Positions 5,985 to 9,492 of a DNA stretch of 64,000 nt are shown one piece after another. The translations under genes and the position numbers were made by a program. The DNA is from an uncultured Acidimicrobiia bacterium (GTDB lineage: Bacteria > Actinomycetota > Acidimicrobiia > Spongiisociales > Spongiisociaceae). The notes below the pieces were generated by a model. The model was not told where the DNA came from, searched no databases, and saw only the letters and a list, made by a program, of their open reading frames with translations. The stretch is taken from positions 682,001-746,000 of the forward strand of contig OY282370.1 of NCBI GenBank assembly GCA_958295745.1, in the 5' to 3' direction. The number at the start of each line of letters is the position of its first letter. The stretch's first letter is position 1.

Positions 5985-6376
5985 GGGTATTGAACATGTC
6001 ACAGTATTGTGATATAAATATCAGCAGACAGACATCGCAAGCGGATCCGCGGGCCCGCGGCGATAAATCAGAGACCCGACCCGCCCAAGGGCCGCGCCGT
6101 TGCCCTCCTTCGGAGAAGACAGCCGGACTTCAAGGGACAGAAAGGTCGACCTAGCTGTGCTGAAACGGATCGGACACCGCCGGGCGAACGCGCCTCGGAC
6201 GGCCCGAAGACGATGGATCGGTGGTGGCGGGGGCAGGGCCCGGCGAAGCCGGCAGGTTTCGGGCGGAGAACGCGAAAAACGGCCAACCTGCCCACCGAGA
6301 AAACCTACCAGAGGCAGGTGTCCGCCGATACCTCTGCCCACCCCAACCGAACCTCATGAACAATCAGGGCTAACGA
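5985..6376. repeat. Dispersed intergenic repeat, copy A
   Basis: This non-coding stretch resembles copy B (10808-11195). Matching blocks in order are an AT-rich start with GTATTGTGATATAAATAT, ACAGACATCGCAAGCGGATC, CGCCCAAGG, TAGCTGTGCTGAAACGGATC, the block around 6222-6248 with GGGCCCGGCGAAGCCGGC, then GAGAACGCGAAAAA and finally TGAACAATCAGGGCTAA. Together with the trpS leader it accounts for the 740 bases between trpS and the gene at 6462. Short open frames inside it show no family resemblance. It may be a non-autonomous mobile element or an RNA-type repeat. Confidence 0.6.
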
Positions 6377-6461
6377 CTTGACCTGCTCCATCCGCCCCGC
6401 CTTCCCCATCGGATTAGCCCGCCTTCCTACTATTGTCAGCGGTAATCAACAGGGGGGCAAC

Positions 6462-6713
6462 ATGACAGCAGCAACAGAGTCACTGGTGGATGCCAAAGAC
6501 GAAACCACGAAGGCCGAACTCCGTTTGGACATCACCAATGCCGTCTCCGAGGTAAACACCGCCGTCGAACGGCTAAACACCACCATCGAACGGCTAAACA
6601 CCACCATCGAGCGGCGGAACGCCACCATCGAACGACGGCTCGCACAGACCACCTACTGGCTGATCGGCTTCGGGGCCGCCGCGTCGGGCCTGATCATCGC
6701 TGTGCTGAGGTAA
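6462..6713 (+). CDS. Small coiled-coil protein with C-terminal membrane anchor
   Basis: An 83-residue protein of unknown function. Residues 1-35 are acidic and helical; residues 36-60 hold two copies of 'RLNTTIE' followed by a near-copy 'RRNATIE', a seven-residue periodicity expected for a coiled coil. The last 20 residues are a single hydrophobic segment ending in LR, so a tail-anchored topology is likely. The ATG at 6462 has an AGGGGGGC ribosome-binding site; the open frame continues upstream to 6378 without one. It is isolated between repeat copy A and the cimA leader. Its pattern resembles small phage-hemolysin-like or DUF1640-like coiled coils, but I cannot assign a family. Confidence 0.6.
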   Translation: MTAATESLVDAKDETTKAELRLDITNAVSEVNTAVERLNTTIERLNTTIERRNATIERRLAQTTYWLIGFGAAASGLIIAVLR

Positions 6714-6807
6714 CGAAAGAAGCTTCATAGATCACCTCATCGAGACGGCGGCAGCCGATCGAAGCCCGTCGTCCCGTTTCCCTGCGGAGAGGACCGCCGG
6801 CCTCGGG

Positions 6808-6836
6808 TTGACAAATGGGGGCCGAAATACCAGAAT
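6808..6836 (+). promoter_or_regulatory. Sigma70-type promoter of the cimA leader
   Basis: A consensus -35 hexamer TTGACA (6808-6813) is followed by a 17-base spacer and CAGAAT (6831-6836), which matches the -10 consensus in four of six positions. It lies directly upstream of the leader peptide at 6847. Transcription from it would give a leader of roughly 195 bases before the cimA start. If the start point falls at the usual distance, the leader peptide would have only a very short 5' untranslated region. Confidence 0.55.
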
Positions 6837-6846
6837 CGGGGGCGGC

Positions 6847-6885
6847 ATGAACATGACACACCACACGGGGATCATTATCGACTAG
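6847..6885 (+). CDS. Isoleucine-type attenuator leader peptide of cimA
   Basis: A 12-codon open frame encoding MNMTHHTGIIID, with three consecutive isoleucine codons (ATC ATT ATC at 6871-6879) immediately before its end. GGGGG lies a few bases upstream as a possible ribosome-binding site. Leader peptides rich in the end-product amino acid are the sensor of ribosome-mediated transcription attenuation, as known for ilv and leu operons. Here the gene downstream is cimA, which commits carbon to isoleucine, so the codon content fits the pathway. A GGGGCA segment starting at the stop codon (6885-6890) can pair with TGCCCC (6913-6918), and a terminator hairpin follows at 6921-6949. Confidence 0.7.
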   Translation: MNMTHHTGIIID

Positions 6886-6920
6886 GGGCATCGGGACCCG
6901 TACAACCCCTTTTGCCCCCC

Positions 6921-6949
6921 AAACCCTGCGCTCCTGCGGAGGGTTTTTT
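6921..6949 (+). terminator. Attenuator terminator before cimA
   Basis: AAACCCT (6921-6927) pairs perfectly with AGGGTTT (6940-6946) and the 3' arm runs into six T residues (6944-6949), the form of an intrinsic terminator. It ends 88 bases before the cimA start and 36 bases after the leader-peptide stop, so in context it is an attenuator and not the end of an operon. Which upstream segment forms the competing antiterminator (AGGGG/CCCCT or GGGGCA/TGCCCC) needs an RNA fold. Confidence 0.6.
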
Positions 6950-7037
6950 CTTTGTCCGGGCGGCCCCGATCCGAAGGAAGCCGGACCGGGCAGAGAACCG
7001 GAGATGGGGCGGGGGAACGGGAGAGAGGCGGCGCACC

Positions 7038-8609
7038 ATGGCACATCCACAGCTCGAGATCTACGACACCACCCTGCGGGACGGCGCCCAGCAGGAAGGC
7101 ATCTCGCTCACCGTCTCCGACAAGCTCCGGGTGGCGGGGTTGCTGGACGAGCTGGGCGTCGCCTACATCGAGGGGGGGTGGCCGGGCGCCAACCCGAAAG
7201 ACAGCGAGTTCTTCAAGCGGGCCCGCTCGGAGCTGGACCTGCGCACCGCCTCCCTGACCGCCTTCGCCTCGACCCGCCGCCCGCGCGGTGCGGTGGAGGG
7301 AGATCCGCAGATGCTCGACCTGCTGGAAGCCGAGACCGAGGTGGTGTGCATCGTCGGCAAGGCGTGGGACTACCACGTCAAGGAAGCCCTGCGCACCGAC
7401 CTCGGCGAAGGCATAGCCATGGCGGGCGAATCGGTCGACTACCTGGTCCGCCGCGGGCGCCGGGTGTTCTTCGACGCCGAGCATTTCTTCGACGGCTACG
7501 CCTCCGACCCCGGGTTTTCGCTGGCGGTGCTGAAGGCCGCCCACGAAGCGGGGGCGGAGCGGCTGGTGCTGTGCGACACCAACGGAGGCCGGCTGCTGCA
7601 CGAGATCACCCATACCCTGGGCCGGGTGCAGGAAGCGCTTCCCGAGGCGGAACTCGGGGTGCACTTCCACAACGACGCCGGGTGCGCGGTGGCGTCTTCG
7701 CTGGCCGCGGTGCGGCTCGGGGTGCGCCAGGTGCAGGGCTGCGTCAACGGATACGGGGAACGCACCGGCAACGCCGACCTGTCCACCATCCTTCCCGACC
7801 TGGTGCTCAAGATGGGGGTGCCGGTGCTCGACCATGTCCGGCTGGAGAGCCTGTCCCCCATCGCCCGCCACATCGCCGAGATCGTCAACATCCGCCTCGA
7901 CCCGCACAGCCCGTACGTGGGCACCTCCGCCTTCACCCACAAGGCGGGCCTCCACACCTCGGCCCTGGCCCGCCGCCCGGACGCCTACGAGCACCAGAAC
8001 CCGGCGGCGGTGGGCAACCGCACCCGCATGGTGGTCTCGGAGCTGGCCGGCAAGACCGCCGTCCTCTCGAAGGCGGCCGAACTGGACGTAGAGCTGACCG
8101 ACCGGCAGGCCGCCGAGGTGCTGGACGACATCAAACACATGGAGCACCGCGGCTATCACTTCGAGGCGGCCGACGGTTCCTTCGAGCTGATGCTCCGCCG
8201 GGCGGCGGGGTGGACCCACGACTTCTTCGAGCTGGAGTCCTACCGGGTGTCCACCGAGCGGCGCGGCGGAGGGGAGGTCATGGCCGAAGCAACGGTCAAA
8301 CTTTGGATCAGGGGGGAGCGGATCATCACCACCGGGGAGGGAAACGGTCCGGTCAACGCCCTCGACCACGCCCTCCGGGGCGCCCTCCGAAGCCGCTTCC
8401 CCGAGCTGGACGGCCTGCGGCTGACCAACTACCGGGTGAGGGTCCTGGACGCCACCGAATCCACCGCCGCCGCCGTCCGGGTGTTCATAGAGACCAGCGA
8501 CGGAACGAGCGCCTGGGGCTCGATCGGGGTCGACACCGACGTGATCGGGGCCTCCTGGGAGGCTCTGGCGGACGGGATCGTGGTGGGCCTGCTCAGGGCG
8601 GGGGCCTGA
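7038..8609 (+). CDS. cimA: (R)-citramalate synthase
   Basis: Condenses pyruvate with acetyl-CoA to (R)-citramalate, the threonine-independent entry into isoleucine synthesis; cytoplasmic. The 523-residue protein belongs to the CimA branch (TIGR00977-like) of the isopropylmalate/homocitrate synthase family. It has an HMGL-like TIM barrel with 'YDTTLRDGAQQEG' at residues 8-20 (metal-binding Asp and Arg), 'EGGWPGANP', the metal-ligand region 'GVHFHNDAGCAVA', and 'GTSAFTHKAGLH'. A C-terminal LeuA dimerisation/allosteric domain spans about residues 385-520. The ATG at 7038 has GAGAGAGG upstream. The leader with an Ile-rich peptide and terminator argues that the operon is attenuated when isoleucine is plentiful. 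The two genes that follow are on the same strand. Confidence 0.92.
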   Translation: MAHPQLEIYDTTLRDGAQQEGISLTVSDKLRVAGLLDELGVAYIEGGWPGANPKDSEFFKRARSELDLRTASLTAFASTRRPRGAVEGDPQMLDLLEAETEVVCIVGKAWDYHVKEALRTDLGEGIAMAGESVDYLVRRGRRVFFDAEHFFDGYASDPGFSLAVLKAAHEAGAERLVLCDTNGGRLLHEITHTLGRVQEALPEAELGVHFHNDAGCAVASSLAAVRLGVRQVQGCVNGYGERTGNADLSTILPDLVLKMGVPVLDHVRLESLSPIARHIAEIVNIRLDPHSPYVGTSAFTHKAGLHTSALARRPDAYEHQNPAAVGNRTRMVVSELAGKTAVLSKAAELDVELTDRQAAEVLDDIKHMEHRGYHFEAADGSFELMLRRAAGWTHDFFELESYRVSTERRGGGEVMAEATVKLWIRGERIITTGEGNGPVNALDHALRGALRSRFPELDGLRLTNYRVRVLDATESTAAAVRVFIETSDGTSAWGSIGVDTDVIGASWEALADGIVVGLLRAGA

Positions 8610-8685: not shown

Positions 8686-9492
8686 ATGACGCCGGCGCCG
8701 CACGCATATACGGCGAATCCGGCGCCGACCGCCCCTGAATCCCTGCTCGAGGAAGCCGTCGAGATGGCCCGCCGGGCCGGGCGCCTCACCCTGGACTGGT
8801 TCCGCCCCTCGGTGGAGGTGGAGATCAAGGCGGACGGGAGCCCGGTGACCGAAGCGGACCGGGCCGCCGAGCTGCTGCTCCGGCGGGAGCTCGCCGAGCG
8901 CCACCCGGGGGACGCCGTGGTCGGGGAGGAGATGGGCGCCAGCGGGGGCGGCACCGGCCGCACCTGGTTCATCGACCCCATCGACGGCACCCAGTCGTTC
9001 GTGCGGGGGGTCCCCCTGTTCGCCACCCTGCTGGCCCTGGAAGACGTCCACGGCCCGGCGGCCGGGGTGATCTACCTCCCGGCCCTCGACGAGACGGTGG
9101 CCGCCGGGCGGGGAACAGGGTGTTTCCTGAACGGGCGCCCCGCCGAGGTCAGCGGCAGGAGCTCCCTGGAGGGGTCCGTGCTGTGCACCAGCGGCTACGA
9201 CCTGATCCCCGAGGACGCGGCCGCCCGCCTGCATCGCAGCCCGCTCACCCTCAGGGGATGGGGGGACGCCTACGGATACGCCTTGGTGGCCGCCGGGCGG
9301 GTGGAGGCCATGTACGACCCGGTGGTGAACCCCTGGGACATCGCCCCGATGGCGGTGATCGTCCCCGAAGCGGGGGGCGTCTTCACCGACTGCTCGGGGG
9401 CGCCGGGGTTCCGATCGGGAACCGGCCTGGCCACCAACGGGCGGCTGCACAGCGAGGTACTGGAGATCGTGGCCGGACGGGGCGGGAAGTAG
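8686..9492 (+). CDS. Inositol monophosphatase-family phosphatase (possible histidinol-phosphatase)
   Basis: A 268-residue member of the Mg2+-dependent, Li+-sensitive IMPase superfamily. Metal-binding motifs are intact: 'GEEMG' (first Glu), 'WFIDPIDGTQSFV' (Asp, Asp, Gly, Thr) and the C-terminal 'PWDIAPMAVIVPEAGG'. In Actinobacteria, proteins with this pattern are often HisN histidinol-phosphatases, completing histidine synthesis; inositol-phosphate, fructose-bisphosphate or PAP phosphatase activity cannot be ruled out by sequence alone. The ATG at 8686 is followed by a proline/alanine-rich stretch of about 15 residues before the fold starts. It sits 76 bases after cimA and 26 bases before the oxidoreductase gene, so the three may be cotranscribed. 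Confidence 0.85.
   Translation: MTPAPHAYTANPAPTAPESLLEEAVEMARRAGRLTLDWFRPSVEVEIKADGSPVTEADRAAELLLRRELAERHPGDAVVGEEMGASGGGTGRTWFIDPIDGTQSFVRGVPLFATLLALEDVHGPAAGVIYLPALDETVAAGRGTGCFLNGRPAEVSGRSSLEGSVLCTSGYDLIPEDAAARLHRSPLTLRGWGDAYGYALVAAGRVEAMYDPVVNPWDIAPMAVIVPEAGGVFTDCSGAPGFRSGTGLATNGRLHSEVLEIVAGRGGK

Follow-up and report, generated by a model that had tools for sequence, protein, structure and literature searches.

A putative isoleucine-responsive leader-peptide attenuator with tandem, non-overlapping hairpins upstream of the citramalate synthase gene in Acidimicrobiia

We report that the citramalate synthase gene (cimA) of an uncultured Acidimicrobiia bacterium is preceded by a leader which, judged from its sequence and from that of its relatives, is highly likely to be an isoleucine-responsive, translation-dependent leader-peptide transcription attenuator. 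The leader possesses its own promoter, a run of end-product codons near the stop codon of a short open reading frame (ORF), and an intrinsic terminator between this ORF and the first gene. It is therefore very probably an attenuator in the broad sense and not one of the type with an overlapping antiterminator; since no such antiterminator is conserved, the leader departs from the classical ilv, leu or trp design. The stretch that was analysed (the window, 64,000 nucleotides) represents bases 682001-746000 of contig 1 in a draft genome of 3.3 Mb.

Architecture of the cimA leader

The putatively regulated gene, cimA, whose product catalyses the first step of isoleucine synthesis, occupies positions 7038-8609 of the forward strand (ATG at 7038, stop at 8609), and its product matched the citramalate synthase equivalog model TIGR00977 with 631 bits (cut-off 450). 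Upstream of it, on the same strand, we read a promoter (6808-6836) composed of a TTGACA -35 element (6808-6813), a 17-nt spacer and a CAGAAT -10 element (6831-6836). A search for sigma-70-like sites on both strands of 6000-7600 returned this promoter alone, where shuffled sequences led us to expect 0.1. Similar sites of the form TTGACN-(16-18)-(NANACT-like) were equally placed in 49 cimA leaders; wherever a promoter could be called (all 49), the leader start codon followed the end of the -10 hexamer by 6-11 nt (10 nt in the window). Transcription usually starts about 7 nt downstream of the -10 box. Together with this spacing, that predicts a leader RNA whose 5' end lies 0-4 nt upstream of the start codon, in effect a near-leaderless mRNA.

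The leader ORF (6847-6885, forward strand), read directly as MNMTHHTGIIID and a stop, comprises 12 codons from the ATG at 6847 to the TAG at 6883-6885. Its putative regulatory codons, Ile-Ile-Ile encoded by ATC-ATT-ATC (6871-6879), belong to an Ile run common to cimA leaders and are separated from the stop by a single Asp codon. Hairpin P1 (6885-6918, forward strand) consists of the arms 6885-6890 and 6913-6918 with an inner 3-bp helix, its 5' arm beginning on the G of the TAG stop. It is followed by the intrinsic terminator P2 with its T-run (6921-6949, forward strand), which consists of the arms 6921-6927 and 6940-6946 with an inner helix and a T-run at 6944-6949.

An earlier note on this DNA had named the promoter, a 12-codon peptide with Ile-Ile-Ile and the terminator, and all three were recovered, with one Asp codon standing between the Ile run and the stop. 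That note had also taken a transcription start downstream of 6890 as evidence against attenuation; the constant promoter spacing predicts a start before 6890 and disfavors such a reading. Folding of the leader RNA, which it had proposed as a check, yielded both P1 and P2.

Between the divergent trpS gene and the cimA leader sits a small ORF (6462-6713) whose product contains a coiled-coil-like segment that is repeated (ERLNTTIERLNTTIERRNATIERR) and, at its C-terminus, a membrane-like helix; no NCBIfam match was obtained for it. A HisN-like histidinol-phosphatase gene (8686-9492; 235 bits, under the cut-off of 275) follows cimA after 76 bp in the same orientation and is possibly cotranscribed with it. 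The genome is a draft of 9 contigs, and MAGs are its closest relatives; the named relatives nearest in cimA are mostly Acidimicrobiia MAGs.

Two adjacent hairpins with covarying arms

The P2 hairpin (6921-6946) folded 3.0 sd better than shuffled sequences, and the T-run terminator pattern by itself was near chance (2 found against 1.3 expected). The P1 of the window is among the less regular ones, with 9 bp, an internal loop and a folding energy of -14.7 kcal/mol against -11.0 +/- 1.9 kcal/mol in shuffles. Across the leaders that were parsed, P1 (8-17 bp long) started at -1 to +1 nt relative to the end of the stop codon in 108 of 108. The linker between P1 and P2 measured 0-7 nt in all 107 correctly parsed leaders (2 nt in the window), with L206 left out of this and later counts for a misparse that gave a false linker of 30. 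The first base of P2 lay 23-42 nt after the stop in the family (median 28; 35 nt in the window). A flush hairpin was also folded by 29% of shuffled stop-to-P2 stretches, making its mere presence a weak yes/no test, but the folding energy gave a strong signal (median z -5.0).

We aligned 32 sequences and saw changes on both sides at 12 of the 18 pairs, 8 of these belonging to the 9 pairs of P1; for this count P1 was designated by hand, so that its columns were picked from the sequences themselves. None of 500 shuffles reached the observed covariation score for the two helices of this alignment. Run on the unedited MAFFT alignment, in which several rows had the P1 arms out of register, RNAalifold did not recover P1 for that reason. 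By contrast with swapped arms, the native arms of 95 distinct leaders were strongly matched, both in P1 (A:B, z=-28) and in P2 (C:D, z=-21). In genus g4 of the window's family (L005-L013), the arms of P1 resemble those of P2, as if the hairpin had been duplicated locally.

Ribosome position and the proposed switch

To represent the ribosome, we folded the leader with the covered bases masked. P1 was intact with the ribosome at the first Ile codon, partly melted at the last and absent at the stop codon. No other structure depended on where the ribosome stood: every state was predicted to form P2 or a terminator helix equivalent to it. No overlapping antiterminator was conserved among the 95 distinct leaders (swapped-arm z=+1.3 for A:C, +0.7 for B:D and +1.5 for B:C). 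Minor signals (codons:D -2.9, A:D -2.3, codons:B -2.3) were small beside those of A:B and C:D and may reflect relatedness. Strong co-adaptation within the hairpins, with none for A:C, B:D or B:C, indicates that an antiterminator of the classical kind is not conserved, and hence a switch that would operate without base-pairing competition. The 'alternative GC pairings' of the earlier note were thus only weakly true: two hairpins are present, but they do not overlap and pairing between their arms is not conserved. With P1 as the only ribosome-dependent element, held in fixed contact with P2, the arrangement suggests that P1 hinders closure of the terminator base.

From this layout we infer ribosome stalling, termination, the direction of control and a steric action of P1. 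Transcription would begin about 0-4 nt upstream of the leader ATG, giving a near-leaderless RNA on which a ribosome would translate the 10-12 codon peptide. With enough Ile-tRNA, it would reach the stop codon; as P1 starts at the last base of that codon, the ribosomal footprint would cover the P1 5' arm and P1 could not fold. P2 would then close fully, and RNA polymerase would leave ahead of cimA. When Ile-tRNA is short, the ribosome would stall on the Ile codons, leaving P1 uncovered and able to fold. Folded P1, adjoining P2, would hinder the last base pairs at the terminator base, resulting in readthrough into cimA.

Taken alone, the step in which an abutting P1 sterically hinders the terminator has, in our estimate, roughly an even chance of being correct, and we are not aware of any case in which a terminator was shown to be defeated by an abutting hairpin on its own. 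In E. coli, a ribosome stopped 28 bp before a terminator allowed ~90% termination and one stopped 5 bp before it <10%; the terminator was reported to require that its last 2-3 bp close (PMC4824070). These observations fit both the open state, with P2 23-42 nt past the stop, and a block by a bulky neighbor of P2. In ribosome-free RNA P1 should fold as well, so hindrance by an abutting P1 predicts readthrough without translation; the finding that removal of the leader start codon in C. glutamicum lowered expression by 80% (PMC11857589) counts against this prediction.

P1 might instead be a pause hairpin that synchronizes RNA polymerase with the ribosome, the closeness of the two deciding the outcome in place of a block of P2 by P1. 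We consider this unlikely, although it is the best placed of the alternatives. In trp leaders, the 1:2 pause hairpin occupies the place that P1 has here, which speaks for a pausing role. A close ribosome can also repress terminators (PMC4824070). However, a stalled ribosome would be farther from the polymerase, giving more termination on starvation, which is the wrong sign for a biosynthetic gene, and the P1-P2 linker of 0-7 nt would be left unexplained.

Rather improbable is a classical four-segment attenuator, whose antiterminator, formed upon stalling, would share sequence with the terminator. The g4 leaders lend it some weight, as their P1 3' arm resembles the P2 5' arm, and through this likeness the P1 3' arm can also pair with the P2 3' arm once the P1 5' arm is masked. 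So do the WWW and HHHHH leaders of same-order relatives at trpE and hisG, which look classical with their repeated GGTGGG/CCCACC. Against it, A:C, B:D and B:C were no better in native than in swapped arms, most families are without a competitor helix, P2 forms in every ribosome state, and the alternative helix of g4 likewise ends at the U-tract and would thus be a terminator as well.

Regulatory codons match the downstream genes

We surveyed the codons of 108 leaders and named their downstream genes by tblastn against cimA, ilvB, leuB, ilvE and isopropylmalate synthase, obtaining 56 leaders upstream of cimA, 31 of ilvB, 16 of leuB-ilvE, 4 of an isopropylmalate synthase-like gene (leuA) and one unassigned. 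Leaders of cimA carried Ile at codon -2 in 54/56, at -3 in 49/56 and at -4 in 49/56. Those of leuB-ilvE carried Ile at -2 in 15/16, with -3 and -4 being Ile or Val in most cases, those of ilvB typically read Leu-Val-Leu-Ile, and all 4 leuA leaders read Leu-Leu-Leu. Throughout the 107 leaders of cimA, leuB-ilvE, ilvB and leuA, the regulatory codons fit the end product of the controlled genes, varying with it as attenuation predicts. Rare synonyms were enriched among these codons in comparison to cimA ORFs (GTA 55% vs 4%, CTT 43% vs 6%, ATT 34% vs 11%). Such a match of codons to end product, along with the rare-codon enrichment, would not be expected from chance or from a non-regulatory peptide.

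These data also bear on whether the peptide could be a nascent-chain arrest sequence and not a hungry-codon run, a reading that we hold to be very improbable. The last residues are alike in close relatives (IIID, IIIE), as arrest would have it. Yet the final residue is unconstrained (D, E, G, T, A, S, P, M, N, C, R, L), the regulated pathway determines which residues precede the stop, and rare codons are enriched, all of which argue against arrest and leave stalling at hungry codons as the reading we favor.

The window genome contains a second leader of the same design, MAHGNPVLVLM followed by a stop, upstream of ilvB (L081, G000:C1:99280-99347); an isopropylmalate synthase-like gene was seen 3.6 kb beyond it. 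In other families (L092-L098, L187-L191, L204, L215, L218, L224-L227), an Ile/Val leader stands upstream of leuB-ilvE and not directly of cimA; in L095, leuB and ilvE are followed by cimA.

Distribution among relatives

The family and order were represented by 59 genomes, in which 48 cimA loci were read upstream; all 48 carried the leader. The shared layout in all 48 loci is an Ile-rich short ORF with one further residue (two in L031), the stop, the hairpin and the terminator, and the hairpin started at the final stop-codon base or the one after it. This conservation excludes a chance occurrence. The idea of a coincidence, in which a short ORF arose by chance between an ordinary promoter and a terminator unrelated to it, which one genome alone could not have excluded given a T-run pattern near chance (2 vs 1.3 expected), has a negligible probability beside the order, spacing, codons and covarying helices kept in >100 leaders.

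We then searched more widely with a covariance model, R2. As R2 includes the window's own sequence, the window's score of 67 bits is not independent evidence, but the matches in relatives are. R2 matched 149 of the 247 Acidimicrobiia genomes that represented the class and, at E<=0.001, 58 of 396 genomes drawn from the phylum, at least three of these being weak chance matches. The three, L212-L214 (E about 1e-4 to 1e-3), had neither the leader nor a BCAA gene downstream and were dropped. All 29 order-level genomes with cimA that were searched were positive. Among 10 order-level genomes without a full cimA, 7 had no R2 match and 3 had one, with ilvB downstream in the one that was read (G016). 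R2 also matched 22 named cimA loci of the Acidimicrobiia group, and gave no match on cimA loci of Chloroflexi, Nitrospirota and other phyla.

Within the phylum but outside the class, L209, L210 and L211 have a P1-P2 leader directly upstream of cimA, with VIIT, VIID and RIIGS; the cimA attenuator is thus not restricted to Acidimicrobiia. A Frankiales MAG (L143:1386-1480) carries a weak variant upstream of cimA, MYQTTIIAERVR and a stop, with the Ile codons several codons farther from the stop and the two hairpins still in close succession.

A search of 21 genomes for Trp- or His-coded counterparts of this design at trpE or hisG returned leaders in a few families, with WWW or HHHHH and another layout, and none upstream of trpE or hisG in the window genome. 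In the same family or order, WW or WWW leaders were seen upstream of trpE (L245, L246, L247) and HHHH or HHHHH leaders upstream of hisG (L265, L266); the trpE leaders continue into alternating repeats of the GGTGGG/CCCACC type and look classical.

Relation to known systems

In the attenuators of E. coli ilvGMEDA, leu and trp, the antiterminator shares sequence with the terminator. The cimA leader resembles them in its end-product-codon leader peptide, promoter, terminator and rare codons, but differs in that no conserved antiterminator sharing terminator sequence, the mark of the classical trp, ilv and leu four-segment type, was found here. The likeness to known ilv and leu attenuation drawn by the earlier note therefore extends to the end-product codons and stops short of the classical overlapping antiterminator. 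Leaderless poly-Cys short ORFs of mycobacteria, reportedly described by Canestrari in 2020, likewise place a regulatory leader peptide on leaderless RNA, as predicted here. These respond to cysteine by translational attenuation (according to PMC13236596), unlike the cimA leader with its transcription terminator.

A close likeness is to C. glutamicum ilvBNC and ilvB-II (PMC11857589, PMC10272879), which share the actinobacterial BCAA leader peptide, the neighboring hairpins and the intrinsic terminator. Mutational work on the ilvBNC attenuator describes an antiterminator hairpin next to the terminator hairpin and a transcription start 1 nt from the leader ATG (PMC11857589). In the C. glutamicum leaders, however, the uORF covers most of P1, the antiterminator and terminator share a GCC trinucleotide, and there is a third, anti-antiterminator hairpin. 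In the cimA leader the ORF ends just before P1 and the hairpins do not overlap, so that neither the boundary-trinucleotide overlap nor the uORF over most of P1 that characterize the 'fast' ilvBNC attenuator and ilvB-II was found; no third hairpin is conserved in cimA-type leaders. The target also differs from ilvBNC, being cimA, and the codons are Ile only.

For M. tuberculosis ilvB1, the proposed rule is that a ribosome at the stop masks the antiterminator and a stall on BCAA codons frees it, and changing LVVI to AAAA led to low, unresponsive expression (PMC13236596). Our proposal for cimA shares this rule, whereas ilvB1 is another gene with other codons, for which a mutually exclusive antiterminator and terminator have been proposed (PMC13236596). 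A 2005 survey of Actinobacteria listed trp, cys, ilvB, leuA, leuS, trpS and ileS elements and no cimA or leuB-ilvE leader (PMC1262725). The cimA leader resembles its candidate ilvB leaders, which have BCAA-rich short ORFs and terminators upstream, and differs from its LEU elements, which are pseudoknots and not tandem hairpins with a terminator (PMC1262725). No T-box or other Rfam 15 family matched at gathering score, the best sub-threshold match at E up to 10 reaching 13.8 bits where 55 were needed.

Open-access titles and abstracts, in which an older report could be missed, contained no relevant description of citramalate synthase together with a leader peptide or attenuator, and the open-access papers searched gave no joint description of Acidimicrobi-, leader peptide and attenuation. 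Within that literature, the earlier note's view of cimA attenuation as previously undescribed holds, and its central proposal of isoleucine attenuation of cimA gains support from the Ile codons and hairpins kept in all close relatives.

Significance

Collectively, the analysis would mean that a leader peptide controls isoleucine synthesis from pyruvate via citramalate, for which we found no prior description. The new part is the tandem, non-overlapping layout common to the cimA, leuB-ilvE, ilvB and leuA leaders: one modular design of codons, stop, flush hairpin and abutting terminator, reused at these genes with the codons swapped according to the end product. We tentatively suggest, at somewhat less than an even chance, that it represents a widespread class of actinobacterial BCAA attenuators without an overlapping antiterminator, in which a stop-flush hairpin, set by the ribosome, abuts the terminator and sterically blocks closure of its base. 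If the abutting action of P1 is true, attenuation would be reduced to two non-overlapping hairpins, and this may explain actinobacterial ilv leaders whose mode has been unclear (PMC1262725).
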